The translations under genes were made by a program, and so were the position numbers. DNA of 64,000 bases from Ectothiorhodosinus mongolicus (GTDB lineage: Bacteria; Pseudomonadota; Gammaproteobacteria; Ectothiorhodospirales; Ectothiorhodospiraceae), in assembly GCF_022406875.1 (NCBI RefSeq), contig NZ_CP023018.1, positions 1,068,784 to 1,132,783 of the forward strand, given 5' to 3'. This document shows, piece by piece, positions 8,062 through 28,812 of this stretch; within the stretch, counting starts at the first letter, position 1, and every line of letters begins with the position of its first letter. The notes under the pieces were generated by a model. That model worked only from the letters and a program-made list of their open reading frames with translations, did no database searches and had not been told where the DNA came from.

Positions 8062-8280
8062 GTGGATGCAAATGTGGACGCCGAATCCTTCGAGCAAATA
8101 AGGGCCCAGCTGGCTGAACTCAAGCAAGAGCATCGCGCTCTAGATGAGGCGATTGAGCGTCTCAATGAGGGGCCTTTTGTAGATCAGATACAGCTGACCC
8201 GCTTAAAAAAGCGCAAGCTCTATCTGAAAGACGCTATATCTAGACTCGAGAGCCGTCTAATTCCCGACTTAAATGCCTGA
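8062..8280 (+). CDS. Small DUF465 (YdcH-like) coiled-coil protein
   Basis: A 72-residue, highly charged helical protein. The C-terminal half (IQLTRLKKRKLYLKDAISRLES) carries the LKKxKLxLKDxI pattern of the DUF465/YdcH family, whose function is unknown. No signal peptide or membrane helix is seen. Translation from the ATG at 8062 has only a weak ribosome site (GGTGG). It is divergent from zur and followed immediately by a terminator hairpin. Confidence 0.8.
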   Translation: MDANVDAESFEQIRAQLAELKQEHRALDEAIERLNEGPFVDQIQLTRLKKRKLYLKDAISRLESRLIPDLNA

Positions 8281-8305
8281 AAAATCGGGCCCCTGAGGGC
8301 CCGAC
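8281..8305 (-). terminator. Intrinsic terminator of the fcc operon
   Basis: A perfect 8-bp stem TCGGGCCC/GGGCCCGA (8286-8293 with 8298-8305) has a 4-nt loop. A five-A run on the plus strand gives the T run on the leftward strand. It lies 26 bp past the fccB stop. On the plus strand no T run follows, so it would serve the DUF465 gene only weakly. Confidence 0.75.
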
Positions 8306-8330
8306 TGCATCATTTCAGGGGGGCTTTCAA

Positions 8331-9629
8331 TTAACCCCAGATATCTTGGGTGATGCTGGCATACCAGCCACGAGCATAATTGGCCTCCTGCCTGCGGAAA
8401 GCCGTTGTGGCGTTGCCCGGGCTGACGCCACCTGAGCCGGGAACTCCGCCAATGTTACCGTCTTGAACGCGATAAACTGCCGCCACAGAGATACCGTATT
8501 GCGGGCTGACGAGGCTATAACAGGTATTGACCGTCGACAGAGCAAGCATTTCTTGGCCGCGCATGGCGCGCACAATCGAAGCGGCAACGACCTTGCCTTG
8601 AGTATTAGCAGAGTGGCCTGATTTAGGCATAGCCCCAGCGATGCTGGCATCGCCGATCACAAAAATGTTTTCGTCCATTTGTGATTGGAATGTCAGCTGG
8701 TTTACCGGGCACCATCCAGTGTCGTTGGTCAGCCCTGAGTTCACAGCGATATCACCAGCACGCTGCGCAGGCACAAAGTTCAGCACATCAGCGCGAAACC
8801 GGGTTAAGCCGCCATCGGAGTACACTGTTCGGGAGGCCACATCCACGCGTTCGACTTGGCCACCCCTTGAGCTAGGTACCCACTCAATCATTTCACCATA
8901 GAGTTCTTGCCAGCCGGCCATGAACAGTCCCTGCTTAGAGAAGTTCTCTTTGTTATCCAGGATGATGATCTTCGAGCGCGGCTTATGCTGTTTAAAGTAA
9001 TGCGCCACCATGCTGGCTCGTTCATAGGGTCCTGGCGGGCAGCGGAAGGGATTCCCAGGCGCCACCATGACGAAGGTTCCACCATTGGGCATGTCGCGCA
9101 ATTGGTCACGCAAGATTTGGGTTTGCTCCCCGGCTTTCCAAGCATGCGGCACTTGTCGGACGTCATTAGCGGTGTAACCTTCAACAGCATCAAAGCGGAA
9201 ATCAATGCCCGGAGAAACCACCAGACGGTCATAGCTCAAACGTCGACCGCTACCCAGCACGACCTGATTTTTGTCGGCTTCAATGGCGCTGACAATGTCG
9301 CGTACCACTGTGACTCCATGCTGATCCTGCAACGTTCCGTAGGTCTGCTGGATTTGGTCCATCTCAGCAATGCCGCCAAGCACCCAGTTGGAGCCATAGC
9401 AGGTGTGGTAGGTGGCATTAGGTTCCACCAATGTGACTTGGATGCTGGGATCAAAGCGTCGCAGATATTTTGCGGCGGTTGCACCACCAGAACCACCACC
9501 CACCACCACAACATGAGGTCCTCGCCCCGTTAGGTAGGTGGGTGCGCTGCCACAGGCCGCTAAGGCTGTTGCCGCACCGCCAGCCCCAAGGGCACGAATA
9601 AAATGACGTCTGCTAAATTTTTTATCCAT
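8331..9629 (-). CDS. fccB: Flavocytochrome c sulfide dehydrogenase, flavoprotein subunit
   Basis: A 432-residue FAD protein of the sulfide dehydrogenase family, which oxidises sulfide to sulfur compounds and passes electrons to cytochrome c outside the inner membrane. The N-terminus SRRHFIRALGAGG is a twin-arginine signal followed by LAACG, a possible lipobox. VVVVGGGSGGATAAKYL near residue 40 is the FAD dinucleotide fold. TCYGSNWV, RCPPGPYERAS and NTCYS are family segments; the last two hold the cysteines expected to form the redox disulfide. It starts 13 bp after the cytochrome gene stop, so the two form one operon. Export presumably uses a Tat system such as tatABC in this window. Confidence 0.93.
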   Translation of the reverse strand: MDKKFSRRHFIRALGAGGAATALAACGSAPTYLTGRGPHVVVVGGGSGGATAAKYLRRFDPSIQVTLVEPNATYHTCYGSNWVLGGIAEMDQIQQTYGTLQDQHGVTVVRDIVSAIEADKNQVVLGSGRRLSYDRLVVSPGIDFRFDAVEGYTANDVRQVPHAWKAGEQTQILRDQLRDMPNGGTFVMVAPGNPFRCPPGPYERASMVAHYFKQHKPRSKIIILDNKENFSKQGLFMAGWQELYGEMIEWVPSSRGGQVERVDVASRTVYSDGGLTRFRADVLNFVPAQRAGDIAVNSGLTNDTGWCPVNQLTFQSQMDENIFVIGDASIAGAMPKSGHSANTQGKVVAASIVRAMRGQEMLALSTVNTCYSLVSPQYGISVAAVYRVQDGNIGGVPGSGGVSPGNATTAFRRQEANYARGWYASITQDIWG

Positions 9630-10112: not shown

Positions 10113-10976
10113 TTAGAGATCGCCGAAACGCTCATAGCTCCAGACATATTGGTTGGGACACTGACGAACCAGTTGCTCTATAGCCTGGTTAAGCGCTTGG
10201 GTAGCTAGCCCAACATCAGGATTAAATAGATCTTTTGGGGTAGGGACGCAGCGGTAACGATAGCCTTGTCCCTTAGGAAGGCGCTCAGCAAAGGCAAATA
10301 AAACCCGCGCACTATGCTGGCGGGCAAGTTTGGGCAAAAGAGTCATAGTCAGTGCTGGCTGACCAAAGAACAAAGCGGGTATGCCCTGGCCGCGTTTGGG
10401 TTTTTGATCAGGAAGCAGACCAACAATTCCTCCAGTTTGCAGGGCATCACGAATCATTCTCAGACCACTGCGATCAGCCGGGGCAAGCTTTGCCCCCGTA
10501 GCGGATCTTGCGCGGCGAATCGGTTCATCCAGCCAATGGGCTCGCGGTGGGCGATACATGCTGGTCATGGGCCCAAAACTGGCGGCCTGTAAACCGGCAA
10601 ATTCCCAGCTGCCTAAGTGCGGTGACACCAGAAAAACACCGGTTTTGCTGCGCAATGCCTCCTCGAGCAGATGCTCATTTTCACCAACTTGGCGCAATGC
10701 TTGAATGCGTTTGGGGCCTGCGCGCCACAACCAGGGAGCTTCAGTCAGGGCTTTACCCGTCTCGATCAAACTGGCGCGTGCTGTGGATTTTTGCCAGCTA
10801 GGGTCCTTGTCTACAAAACACCTAGCGATATTCTCTAAGGTGTTTTGCTTGAGGCGATTGGGGACCACCCACACCAGCCAACCCAGCGCTGCGCCGATCG
10901 CGTGATTGACGCGTAACGGTAGGCGAGAGAGTAGGGCGAAAGAAAAAAAGATCAGGGCGTGATCGGGACGCGTCAT
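10113..10976 (-). CDS. Lipid A biosynthesis acyltransferase (LpxL/HtrB family)
   Basis: A 287-residue inner-membrane acyltransferase that should add a secondary acyl chain to the lipid A precursor. HLGSWEFAGLQ holds the HX4E catalytic motif, and GGIVGLLPDQKPKRGQG matches the conserved block of the LpxL/LpxM/LpxP group. An N-terminal hydrophobic helix lies around residues 6-35. I chose the ATG at 10976. The longer frame from 11024 would run through a terminator hairpin at 10997-11021. Which secondary chain it adds cannot be told. Confidence 0.88.
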   Translation of the reverse strand: MTRPDHALIFFSFALLSRLPLRVNHAIGAALGWLVWVVPNRLKQNTLENIARCFVDKDPSWQKSTARASLIETGKALTEAPWLWRAGPKRIQALRQVGENEHLLEEALRSKTGVFLVSPHLGSWEFAGLQAASFGPMTSMYRPPRAHWLDEPIRRARSATGAKLAPADRSGLRMIRDALQTGGIVGLLPDQKPKRGQGIPALFFGQPALTMTLLPKLARQHSARVLFAFAERLPKGQGYRYRCVPTPKDLFNPDVGLATQALNQAIEQLVRQCPNQYVWSYERFGDL

Positions 10977-10996
10977 AACACGAGCAAGATAAGGCG

Positions 10997-11021
10997 AAAA
11001 AAAACCCCCGACAAGCGGGGG
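10997..11021 (-). terminator. Intrinsic terminator ending the non-coding RNA candidate or fnr transcript
   Basis: Read leftward: CCCCCG, loop, CGGGGG (11005-11010 with 11016-11021) followed by eight T (plus-strand A run 10997-11004). It lies 236 bp past the stop of the FNR gene and just before the acyltransferase start. It would therefore end a transcript that contains the 11022-11225 structured region. Confidence 0.85.
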
Positions 11022-11225
11022 CATGAATTTCCTTGCGGAGGAATGGGTCTAGCCCGATCTTGGACTGTATTAGGGATCCTTCCGCTAGCTGGTTTGAGTT
11101 CCGTCTCTGTTACCAGCTTTGCTTCCTGCGCGCACACCCAGTACGCATTTGTAGTTTGCGGGAATGGATCGTGACTCGCAGCCACTCAAAGCGCCTCGAA
11201 TGGCGCAAAAGAGCGGAAATCATGT
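10997..11225 (-). ncRNA. Candidate structured non-coding RNA, about 230 nt
   Basis: This gap between the FNR gene and the acyltransferase gene holds no convincing gene. Read leftward, a set of nested pairings can be seen. A closing helix pairs 11215-11224 with 11022-11032 (10 bp, one bulge). A 5-bp hairpin is at 11191-11206. A second helix pairs 11158-11170 with 11075-11085 (11 pairs with small bulges). Inside it are a 6-bp hairpin (11130-11146) and a perfect 7-bp hairpin (11087-11118). A short GGG/CCC hairpin (11045-11055) follows, then a strong terminator. The loop near 11104 exposes ACGGAA closed by GAG/CUC, like a CsrA/RsmA site. I do not recognise the 6S, tmRNA, RNase P or SRP signatures. 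It could be an sRNA or a structured 3' UTR of fnr. Confidence 0.5.
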
Positions 11226-11256
11226 AGGAATTTTCTGAAACCGCGAATTAAAAAGC

Positions 11257-12024
11257 TCAGGATGCCGTATCGCGCGCAGTGACGACATCTTCAACCGTGT
11301 GCGTTCCGGAGACTTTTAACAAACCGTCGAAATCATCAATCATGATCAGCTTGCGCTCTACGCGAACCAGCCCGGCACTTTGAAAGCGGGTAAACAAGCG
11401 GCTGACGGTCTCTACCGCCAAGCCGAGATAATTGGCGATATCATTGCGTGACATCGTCAGGTTAAATTCATTGCGGGAGAAACCTCTGGCTCCAAGCCGA
11501 TTGGAAAGACCCAATAAAAAGGAGGCCATACGCGCTTCTGAGGATTTTTTTCCCAGCAACATCATAAAGTGTTCGTCAGTTTGGATCTCCCGACTCATCA
11601 TGCGAAATAGCTGATGCTGTAGCCCGGGTATCCTTGATGACAGCTCCTGTAGGCGATCAAAGGGGATCTCGCAAATGCTGGTAGTTTCCAGCGCGCGAGC
11701 GGCACAAGGGTGCGCGCCATCGCTGATGGCATCTAGGCCCAGCAGTTCACCGGGTAGATGAAAGCCCGTGACTTGTTCTTGTCCATCATCAGTGAGGGTA
11801 TAAGTCTTCACCGTGCCTGAGCGCACGGCATAGAGCGCGTGCAGGCGGTCGCCGGGGCGATAGAGGTGTTCTTTGCGTTGCAATGGGCGTCGCCGACTAA
11901 TGATTTGCTCCAACAGATTAAGCTCTTCATCGCTGATTCCCAACGGAATACACAAATCGTGCAGACCACAGGTCTTACAAGCCTTTTTAAGGCTTCCCAG
12001 ATCAAGGATTTTTGGGGCAGACAT
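11257..12024 (-). CDS. fnr: FNR-type oxygen-sensing transcription regulator (copy 1)
   Basis: A 255-residue CRP/FNR regulator. CKTCGLHDLC is the CX2CX5C cluster motif and HPCAARALE supplies the fourth cysteine, so a [4Fe-4S] oxygen-labile cluster is expected. The C-terminal helix-turn-helix NYLGLAVETVSRLFTRFQ has the E-xx-SR recognition residues of FNR, which predicts TTGAT-N4-ATCAA sites. I took the ATG at 12024 (MSAPKILDL). A second ATG at 12036 lies only 1 nt from AAGGAG. A close paralog lies at 38209-38982. The gene is divergent from hisB. Confidence 0.92.
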   Translation of the reverse strand: MSAPKILDLGSLKKACKTCGLHDLCIPLGISDEELNLLEQIISRRRPLQRKEHLYRPGDRLHALYAVRSGTVKTYTLTDDGQEQVTGFHLPGELLGLDAISDGAHPCAARALETTSICEIPFDRLQELSSRIPGLQHQLFRMMSREIQTDEHFMMLLGKKSSEARMASFLLGLSNRLGARGFSRNEFNLTMSRNDIANYLGLAVETVSRLFTRFQSAGLVRVERKLIMIDDFDGLLKVSGTHTVEDVVTARDTAS

Positions 12025-12116
12025 GGTGCAGCACATGCTCCTTTGGCCTTAATGCCAGCAAAAACCTTAACTTAAGTGCGGCTAAAAGGACAAGACTGGT
12101 TAATTTTTGTTAGCCA

Positions 12117-26326: not shown

Positions 26327-26366
26327 ACTTGCCATCTACGCCCTTGAGCTTTAGACTTTGGCCTTG

Positions 26367-26434
26367 CTTGAGGAGCGCTGCAACGGTTTAACCGCCAGGC
26401 TCAGGCATTTAAAAACGGCGCTCGTTCATCCCGC
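26367..26434 (+). promoter_or_regulatory. S-adenosylhomocysteine (SAH) riboswitch
   Basis: GAGGAGCGCTGC (26370-26381), a GGTTTAACC hairpin, the CCAGGCTCAGG segment and AACGGCGCTC (26413-26422) match the SAH riboswitch core. TGAG/CTCA forms P1 and GAGCGC/GCGCTC the pseudoknot helix. It lies 80 bp before ahcY, its usual target, and should turn expression on when SAH accumulates. AGGCATT (26403-26409) can also pair perfectly with AATGCCT (26461-26467), a possible switching helix in the expression platform. Confidence 0.9.
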
Positions 26435-26514: not shown

Positions 26515-27930
26515 ATGAGTGCTGTGATTGATACCCGAAACACCGATTTTAGTGTGGCTGATTTGAGCTTGGCTGATTTTGGCCGCAAAGAAATCGCCAT
26601 TGCCGAAACAGAGATGCCTGGCCTCATCGCTACGCGTCAAGCCTATGCCGCCAGCCAGCCGTTGAAAGGCGCGCGCATCGCCGGCAGTCTGCATATGACC
26701 ATTCAGACGGCTGTTCTGATCGAAACCCTCACCGCTTTGGGCGCCGATGTGCGTTGGGCCTCCTGCAATATTTTCTCCACCCAGGATCATGCTGCCGCCG
26801 CTATTGCCGCCGGCGGTACGCCAGTATTTGCCCATAAAGGTGAAACGCTAGAAGAATATTGGGACTTTGCGCATCGGATTTTTGAGTGGTCTGATGGCGG
26901 CACGCCCAACATGATTCTCGATGACGGCGGTGATGCGACGTTACTGATTCACCTTGGCGCCCGGGCTGAGCAGGATGCTTCGATTTTGGATAACCCCGGC
27001 AATGAGGAAGAGCAGGTATTGTTCGGACAAATCAAAAAACGCCTAAAAGGCCAGCCGGGCTGGTACTCCAACGTTCTGAAGAACATCCAAGGCGTAACCG
27101 AAGAGACCACCACCGGCGTGCATCGCCTGTACCAGATGGCCAAAGAGGGAGCGCTGCCCTTCCCGGCTATCAATGTGAATGATTCGGTGACCAAGTCCAA
27201 GTTCGATAACTTATATGGCTGTCGCGAGTCTTTGGTGGATGCCATTAAGCGCGCCACCGATGTCATGGTAGCAGGCAAAATTGCTGTGGTTTGTGGTTAC
27301 GGTGATGTGGGCAAAGGTTCAGCTCAGTCTTTGCGTGCCCTGTCGGCCCAAGTTTGGGTGACTGAGATCGATCCGATTTGTGCACTGCAAGCGGCAATGG
27401 AGGGCTTCCGTGTCGTGACCATGGACGAAGTGTGCGACAAGGCCGATATCTTTGTGACTGCCACCGGCAATGTGAATGTGATTACGGCGGATCACATGCG
27501 CCGCATGAAAAACGAGGCCATCGTCTGCAATATCGGGCATTTTGATTCGGAAATCGATGTAGCGGGTCTGCGCCAGTTCACTTGGGAAAATATCAAGCCG
27601 CAAGTTGATCATGTCATTTTCCCCGAAGGCCATCGCATTATTCTGTTAGCCGAAGGGCGACTGGTGAACCTAGGTTGTGGCACAGGCCATCCCAGTTTTG
27701 TGATGTCTAATTCCTTCACCAACCAGGTTATGGCACAGATCGAGCTTTGGCAGAATGGAGACCAGTACCAAAATCAGGTCTACGTTTTGCCTAAACATCT
27801 GGACGAGCGGGTGGCTGAATTACACCTTCAAAAACTGGGTGCGCAGCTGACCCAGTTGACTGATGAGCAGGCTAAGTACTTGGGTGTTCCGGCCCAAGGC
27901 CCATTCAAGCCCGACCATTACCGCTATTGA
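26515..27930 (+). CDS. ahcY: Adenosylhomocysteinase
   Basis: A 471-residue NAD-dependent hydrolase that splits S-adenosylhomocysteine to homocysteine and adenosine, keeping methylation reactions going. [15 protein letters not shown] is the substrate segment, [18 protein letters not shown] the NAD fold, and it ends FKPDHYRY as the family does. Together with metF, 15 bp downstream, it forms the methyl cycle pair. The upstream SAH riboswitch indicates control by its own substrate. Confidence 0.98.
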
Positions 27931-27945
27931 TAACGGGGCTGACTG

Positions 27946-28812
27946 ATGGAGACTCAAAAGCGCTTTGAGCGCACCTTCAGTTTTGAGTTTTTCCCGCCCA
28001 AAAATCCCGAAAGTGCTGCTCGACTGCGTGACACCTGGACGCAGTTGGCGGCACTGGGACCGCGGTTCTTCTCGGTGACCTATGGTGCGGGGGGCTCAAC
28101 TCAAGCTAGGACCCTAGAAACGGTGCTGGAGATTCATCGTCAATCGGGGGTGGATGCGGCGCCGCATTTGTCCTGCATTGATTCCTCGCGGGAGCAAATG
28201 CGGGAAATACTGCAAACCTACCAGGATGCGGGCTTGAAGCATATCGTCGCTTTGCGGGGTGATTTGCCCTCGGGCATGCATGACCCCGGCGAGTTTCGCT
28301 ATGCCAACGAGCTGGTGGGTTTTATCCGCGAAGAAACGGGTGATCACTTCACCATTGAAGTGGCGGCTTATCCTGAGTTTCATCCGCAAGCGCTCAGCCC
28401 GCAAAAGGATTTATGGCATTTCAAGCAAAAGGTCGAAGCCGGCGCCGATTCGGCAATCACGCAGTATTTTTATTCGGCTGATGCTTATTTTCGCTTTATT
28501 GATGATGTGACAGCATTGGGAGTGAATATTCCTATTGTTCCGGGCATTATGCCGATTACTAATTTTAGTCAGCTGGCGCGATTTTCAGATGCGTGTGGCG
28601 CTGAAATACCGCGTTGGATTCGCCAGCGTTTGCAACATTTTGGCGATGATAAAGCCTCGATTCGTTCCTTCGGAGAAGCGGTGGTCACACAGATGTGTGA
28701 GCGGCTTTTGGATGCCGGTGCACCAGGCCTGCATTTTTATACAATGAATCAGGTAAGCCCTTCGATGGCTATTTGGACAAACCTTGGTTTGGCCGGGGCA
28801 GAAACCGAATAG
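27946..28812 (+). CDS. metF: 5,10-methylenetetrahydrofolate reductase
   Basis: A 288-residue FAD TIM barrel that makes 5-methyl-THF for methionine synthesis. The catalytic Glu is in TFSFEFFPPKNPES, and HIVALRGDLPSG and AAYPEFHPQA are family segments. It follows ahcY by 15 bp and should share the SAH-controlled transcript, so homocysteine release and remethylation are co-regulated. Confidence 0.96.
   Translation: METQKRFERTFSFEFFPPKNPESAARLRDTWTQLAALGPRFFSVTYGAGGSTQARTLETVLEIHRQSGVDAAPHLSCIDSSREQMREILQTYQDAGLKHIVALRGDLPSGMHDPGEFRYANELVGFIREETGDHFTIEVAAYPEFHPQALSPQKDLWHFKQKVEAGADSAITQYFYSADAYFRFIDDVTALGVNIPIVPGIMPITNFSQLARFSDACGAEIPRWIRQRLQHFGDDKASIRSFGEAVVTQMCERLLDAGAPGLHFYTMNQVSPSMAIWTNLGLAGAETE

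Follow-up and report, generated by a model that had tools for sequence, protein, structure and literature searches.

Gene neighbourhood and fold of the gap

The 64-kb stretch of DNA analysed here (the window) carries on its minus strand a non-coding gap of 280 nt, which separates a gene for a regulator of the fnr/crp family from a gene for a lipid A acyltransferase (Table 1). The Fnr protein is 81–84% identical to Ectothiorhodospira Fnr, the nearest named Fnr proteins come from that genus, and comparison with relatives places the fnr start codon probably at 12024. At the other end of the gap, the start of the acyltransferase gene appears ambiguous between 11024 and 10976: ATG 11024 has an SD-like AAGGA ahead of it and its codons run through the terminator, whereas ATG 10976 has no SD, and the homologues align from residue 18–24 on, matching the start at 10976.

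Table 1. Features of the fnr–acyltransferase region, in window coordinates
Feature	Position	Strand	Remarks
fnr/crp-family regulator gene	11257..12036	-	Pfam HTH_Crp_2, cNMP_binding, Crp; adjoins the element on its upstream side
Relic of the GacA upstream activating sequence	11223..11240	-	TTTCAGAAAATTCCTACA; genus consensus TGTARGAAAATCCYTACA
Position of the ancestral -10-like box	11160..11170	-	GATCCATTCCC in the window, ATCATA in relatives; degraded; aligned by eye and by program
Putative body of the Rsm/Csr-type RNA orthologue	10997..11155	-	Inferred extent; collinear with relatives
Weak hairpin GC-AGGAA-GC	11121..11129	-	GGA in loop; seen when the fold starts at 11170
Central hairpin AGCUGGU..GAG-ACGGAA-CUC..ACCAGCU	11087..11118	-	CsrA-like ACGGA in hexaloop
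Last AGGA motif (AAGGAA)	11031..11045	-	Paired in the window: UUCCU-CCGCA-AGGAA
Intrinsic terminator	10996..11022	-	GCCCCCG-CUUGU-CGGGGGU-U8, 7-pair stem
Lipid A acyltransferase gene	10113..11024	-	Pfam Lip_A_acyltrans 3.6e-39; start 10976 or ATG 11024

An earlier note, made from the letters of the window, had proposed a structured non-coding RNA with a strong intrinsic terminator, and the terminator was indeed located. The stretch 11225–10997 (minus strand) is non-coding, folds better than shuffled sequences and has the terminator at its end, with a z of -2.6 for 10997–11256 and of -3.5 for 11025–11225, from which the terminator was left out. The latter value is reached by approximately 0.8% of 512 random 201-nt tiles from the window, so that the stability of 11025–11225 is unusual, not unique, and, since other tiles reach an equal or lower z, stability by itself is no proof of function.

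The closing helix put forward in the earlier note (11224–11215 with 11032–11022) does form in the computed fold, with 10 pairs, one bulge and pair probabilities of 0.55–0.98. For the inner helix, the strand 11085–11077 is paired as proposed; its preferred partner over the span considered, though, is 11042–11035 and not 11158–11170, with which it pairs only when the RNA starts at 11170. The CsrA/RsmA-like GGA hexaloop was found as described, ACGGAA closed by GAG/CUC at 11107–11096, and is carried by a 7-bp outer stem (11118–11112 with 11093–11087); the pair probability of this central hairpin is 0.92–1.0 and its GGA lies in the loop in every sampled structure. The GGA of the weak hairpin has a probability of 0.47 of being unpaired in its loop.

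One way of looking at these features is to consider the gap as a 5' leader of the acyltransferase gene, in which translation would start at ATG 11024 behind AAGGA and the terminator in the first codons would act as an attenuator, perhaps with CsrA at AAGGA. The good SD-like sequence 6 nt before ATG 11024, with none before 10976, and the short distance from the U-run to 10976 (only about 20 nt) speak for it. Against this, the homologues, whose starts lie 1–7 residues behind residue 17, have nothing that corresponds to the 16 extra residues, and a U8 terminator at codons 1–9 would block most expression, and the reading is considered unlikely.

The earlier note had also set aside 6S, tmRNA, SRP and RNase P RNA and had recommended a comparison with Rfam. 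The exclusion of these RNAs is supported, and no Rfam family fits the element: neither the search of the window nor a laxer search of the region gave anything plausible (matches of 16–18 bits are terminator look-alikes), and the covariance models of CsrB, CsrC, RsmY, PrrB_RsmZ and the other Rfam families had no match on it. A likeness to 6S RNA (RF00013), namely a long closing helix around a branched structure, exists in the fold of the earlier note only, and differs from 6S RNA in that the closing helix is not conserved. The 6S RNA of the genome sits elsewhere, at C1:1423678–1423860 (95.5 bits).

The pip–ttcA RNA of Ectothiorhodospira and its wider family

In several Ectothiorhodospira relatives the gene order is fnr> <dtd <pip RNA> ttcA> acyltransferase> (dtd, pip and ttcA identified from sequence). 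The RNA at this syntenic locus belongs to an element of approximately 240 nt that ends in a terminator and opens with the palindrome TGTARG-N6-CYTACA, nearly always TGTARG-AAAATC-CYTACA in the genus (TGTAAGAAAATCCTTACA in L044). Some 85 bp behind the palindrome stands a conserved -10-like ATCATA. The sRNAs of the Gac/Rsm systems are global switches and are known mainly from Pseudomonas, enterics, Vibrio and Legionella. The palindrome fits the GacA upstream activating sequence TGTAAG-N6-CTTACA, which is found at -75 and -196 in rsmY/rsmZ (PMC4950607). Of the eight same-genus genomes searched, five have the exact palindrome once, at the sRNA element; in a sixth, G003, the lone palindrome precedes a shortened copy, and G009 and G001 have two and six copies, respectively.

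Multiple ANGGA motifs are a hallmark of RsmX/Y/Z and CsrB-type sRNAs (PMC2375449). The RNA body of the relatives (about 170 nt) contains 9–11 GGA, compared with 3–4 expected (up to 6 expected in G010), and places 1.0–3.9 GGA in hairpin loops, compared with 0.2–0.6 in shuffles. The last two hairpins, of which the terminator is one, have AGGA-type loops on stems with compensatory changes (GUC-AGGAU-GAC, GGCC-AGGAC-GGCC, UGGC-AGGAA-GCCA; in the terminator CGUC-AGGGAU-GACG, CACC-AGGGAU-GGUG), and an independent MAFFT alignment gave 16 double-change cells against 4.8 in shuffles. The multiple loop GGA, the GacA site and the presence of csrA and gacA identify the relatives' copies as probable Rsm/Csr-type sRNAs. 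In G003 (L010 / L068) the sRNA is naturally shortened: counted from the -10, it has about 96 nt where the usual copy has about 170. It contains 5 GGA and retains an intact GacA site and the GGA terminator loop. Other exact palindromes lie away from the sRNA (L066/L074 and further places in G001; L073 of G009), one of them about 240 bp before an ORF that starts like a lipoprotein (MRPFVPVAAALSLGVLVGCAS), and it is possible that these mark direct GacA targets other than Rsm RNAs.

With a covariance model built on the RNA body, from which the GacA site was excluded, a search of 369 genomes of the class returned 16 matches at E <= 0.01. Outside the genus, dtd and/or pip adjoin 13 of 15 matches, and an exact GacA site lies upstream of eight of the 15, with one mismatch in three more, when by our own estimate about 5 per 100,000 such stretches would carry an exact site by chance. 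L129 has the locus and no GacA site; the weakest match, L132, has neither and is probably false. The same element thus appears to be present in about 14 more Gammaproteobacteria. Across 24 members, 18 of 20 pairs changed on both sides and the covariation score was 0.467, compared with 0.128 in shuffles, in an alignment that was fitted to the covariance model and therefore leans towards structure. The covariation analysis that the earlier note had called for thus had a mixed outcome, with a conserved RNA and strong covariation at the locus in relatives; the conserved stems, however, differ from the closing helix that it had proposed.

Ahead of the last two hairpins, most members have in common a box, UCAAUCACC, that appears to be unpaired. 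It is nearly invariant across the family (L034, L118, L121, L126 and others) and reads UCAAUCACCUCC in L121 and L126. The 3' tail of 16S rRNA is GGAUCACCUCCUUA, which the box resembles. It is conceivable, if rather doubtful, that the family has two functions, as a CsrA sponge and, by way of the box, as an RNA that pairs with GGA-rich ribosome-binding sites of target mRNAs.

The Rsm/Csr families of Rfam matched no member, even at E 1, among the eight Ectothiorhodospiraceae loci and ten others that were compared. The relatives' copies resemble RsmX, RsmY and RsmZ of Pseudomonas in the upstream GacA-type palindrome, the many loop ANGGA, the length (100–170 nt), the intrinsic terminator and the csrA and gacA genes of their genomes, and differ from them in their locus (pip–ttcA), the conserved box and the lack of an Rfam match. 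With CsrB and CsrC of Escherichia coli they would be expected to share the titration of CsrA by GGA hairpins and the control by UvrY/BarA, the orthologues of GacA/GacS; the pip–ttcA RNA is, however, shorter, has fewer GGA and a palindromic GacA site at a fixed distance, and again lacks an Rfam match. It is new to Rfam and of a kind already known, and its intact copies are widespread. The freely licensed literature contained no paper on Rsm/Csr sRNAs of Ectothiorhodospira, and it is possible that some family members were predicted earlier.

Homology and probable decay of the window copy

The fnr–acyltransferase interval of the window lacks dtd, pip and ttcA; the window genome has 2.0 Mb compared with 2.6–3.8 Mb in the same-genus genomes. 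The gap nevertheless matches the non-coding pip–ttcA stretch collinearly, through a 5' block (GAAAATYCCTACA) and a terminal segment (GGGGGTTTTTTTT) on the same strand of the same locus, and the spacing from the 5' block to the terminator is 226 nt in the window and about 237 nt in relatives. Since the three genes stand at this place in relatives, the gap might be considered debris of their loss. This is very improbable: no protein-level match in the gap is better than E 0.08, and the matches obtained point to the non-coding RNA gene of the relatives. When the gap was compared by blastn with 47 genomes of the family, a lone 23-nt match in an unrelated coding locus (L003) was judged to be due to chance.

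The GacA site survives as a relic that keeps 15 of 18 positions. It is the sole match within three mismatches in 64 kb (0.04 expected), it lies on the right strand and at the right place relative to the terminator, and only one of 5000 shuffles of the gap did as well. Against 1000 shuffles that left the terminator intact, the 27-nt 5' block and the nhmmer profile scored better than 997–999. The best window match of the relatives' profile falls here, over its full length (E 0.16), and in the covariance-model search of the window the element came second (12.3 bits, E 0.097). The RNA body is 43–51% identical to that of the relatives, near the alignment background. Taken together, position, broken site and terminator argue well for homology, and the body sequence argues for it weakly.

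This weak similarity of the body is also what an unrelated, structured 3' UTR of fnr with an intrinsic terminator would show, its likeness to the relatives' RNA being due to chance, and the relic lies only 16 nt from the fnr stop with no terminator between them. Such a reading would, however, leave to coincidence the relic, the collinearity and the terminator at a syntenic place, which makes it improbable.

The proposed closing helix takes on a different meaning when it is compared with the relatives, for it overlaps the relic of the GacA-binding site, which is control DNA in those genomes. As a conserved RNA element the helix finds no support in the relatives: the same stretch in 12 relatives has a z between -1.7 and +1.1, and the helices that involve 11225–11157 are private to the window genome.

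The central hairpin, on the other hand, survives and has its GGA at the place that corresponds to one in relatives. The hint of CsrA in the earlier note pointed to the right RNA family, although the family is visible as such only in the relatives. The window copy has 5 GGA, which is not significantly more than the 2.8 expected; 1.47 lie in hairpin loops compared with 0.19 expected (0 of 60 shuffles), one loop being strong, and two or three GGA are paired. According to the folds compared, the last AGGA is paired in the window, whereas in relatives it forms the loop of the hairpin that precedes the terminator. The terminator loop, CUUGU, lacks the AGGGA of the same-genus relatives. From RsmX, RsmY and RsmZ, then, the window copy differs in its broken GacA site and in having one strong GGA loop only.

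Regulators and the probable fate of the element

The regulators that an Rsm RNA would need are partly in place. A search of 12 genomes found csrA in every one, and the window genome has the gene. The same-genus genomes have gacA, and so does the window genome, in which, as in relatives, gacA has fabH on one side and a gene of the uracil-DNA-glycosylase family with uvrC on the other (named from sequence). The GacS/BarA sensor domain PF09984, present in all eight same-genus relatives searched, was not found in the window genome. The closest kinase, a histidine kinase of 437 aa (G000:C1:211003–212250; L107), lacks both PF09984 and a membrane sensor and adjoins apparent pdxJ, acpS and cysM genes; it could be a truncated GacS, and its similarity to GacS kinase cores is no greater than that of other kinases. 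A genome-wide pattern search found no intact GacA upstream activating sequence in the window genome. Another GacA-driven RNA was also sought and rejected, as each of the five one-mismatch sites falls within an ORF, with no GGA-rich, terminator-ended RNA behind them, and the 91 sites with two mismatches are no excess over the 130 of a control pattern.

The window feature is most probably the local orthologue of a GacA-activated sRNA gene that sequesters CsrA/RsmA, decayed and now read mainly as the 3' end of fnr. In the relatives, phosphorylated GacA would bind the palindrome, which lies approximately 85 bp ahead of the -10, and would thereby turn on an RNA of about 150–170 nt. The numerous GGA hairpins of this RNA, which ends at the intrinsic terminator, would capture CsrA dimers and release the mRNAs that CsrA represses. 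In the window, fnr, the sRNA gene and the acyltransferase gene are no longer separated by dtd, pip and ttcA, the GacA site and the -10 have decayed, and most CsrA sites are lost or paired. The remnant is a structured RNA that still ends at a terminator and has two GGA hairpins, one strong and one weak; it would be a weak CsrA sponge at best. The sequences show the locus, the relic site, the terminator, the family structure with its covariation and the enrichment in GGA; from them we infer both GacA control and CsrA binding in the relatives, and the loss of the two in the window genome.

The earlier note had left open the choice between a free sRNA and a 3' UTR of fnr. Between the two, the evidence leans to the 3' UTR, because the GacA site and the -10 are lost and the element lies 16 nt behind fnr. 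As it follows fnr directly, with no intervening terminator, fnr transcripts should enter the element and stop near 10997, and expression of the acyltransferase gene probably depends on read-through or on a promoter within the element, since ATG 10976 lies about 20 nt past the U-run.

A less probable alternative, still deserving some weight, is that the window copy is a remodelled and fully functional Rsm RNA, in which CsrA would be held by the central and 5' GGA hairpins and which would be driven by a different promoter or be processed out of the fnr transcript. CsrA and GacA are retained, as are the length and the terminator, the fold is very stable (z -3.5) with a strengthened central GGA hairpin, and some relatives with intact GacA sites likewise have no GGA in the terminator loop (L121). 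Nevertheless, the GacA site and the -10 are degraded, and of the strong GGA loops a single one remains, when one motif is insufficient for the sequestration of RsmA in Pseudomonas (PMC2375449). What counts against simple erosion is that the stable fold of 11225–11025 does not occur in relatives, so that a force beyond plain decay may be at work. The element is probably eroded or rewired, and is now probably part of the fnr 3' UTR.

The family at pip–ttcA, absent from Rfam, offers a way into the Csr regulon of purple sulfur bacteria and other Gammaproteobacteria. The window genome, with GacA and CsrA kept, the target site broken and no GacS-type domain found, would represent a natural case of the dismantling of such a switch, in which the fate of a sponge after the loss of its input becomes testable.

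Two further stretches of the window, 251–451 and 8251–8451, have z values of about -3.6 to -4.2, that is, folds equal to or stronger than that of the fnr–acyltransferase element, and the first contains a strong terminator at 397–382 on the minus strand. The window also carries an ordinary SAH riboswitch (26364–26430, plus strand, 60.8 bits) upstream of ORFs resembling S-adenosylhomocysteinase (26515–27930) and methylenetetrahydrofolate reductase (27946–28812).
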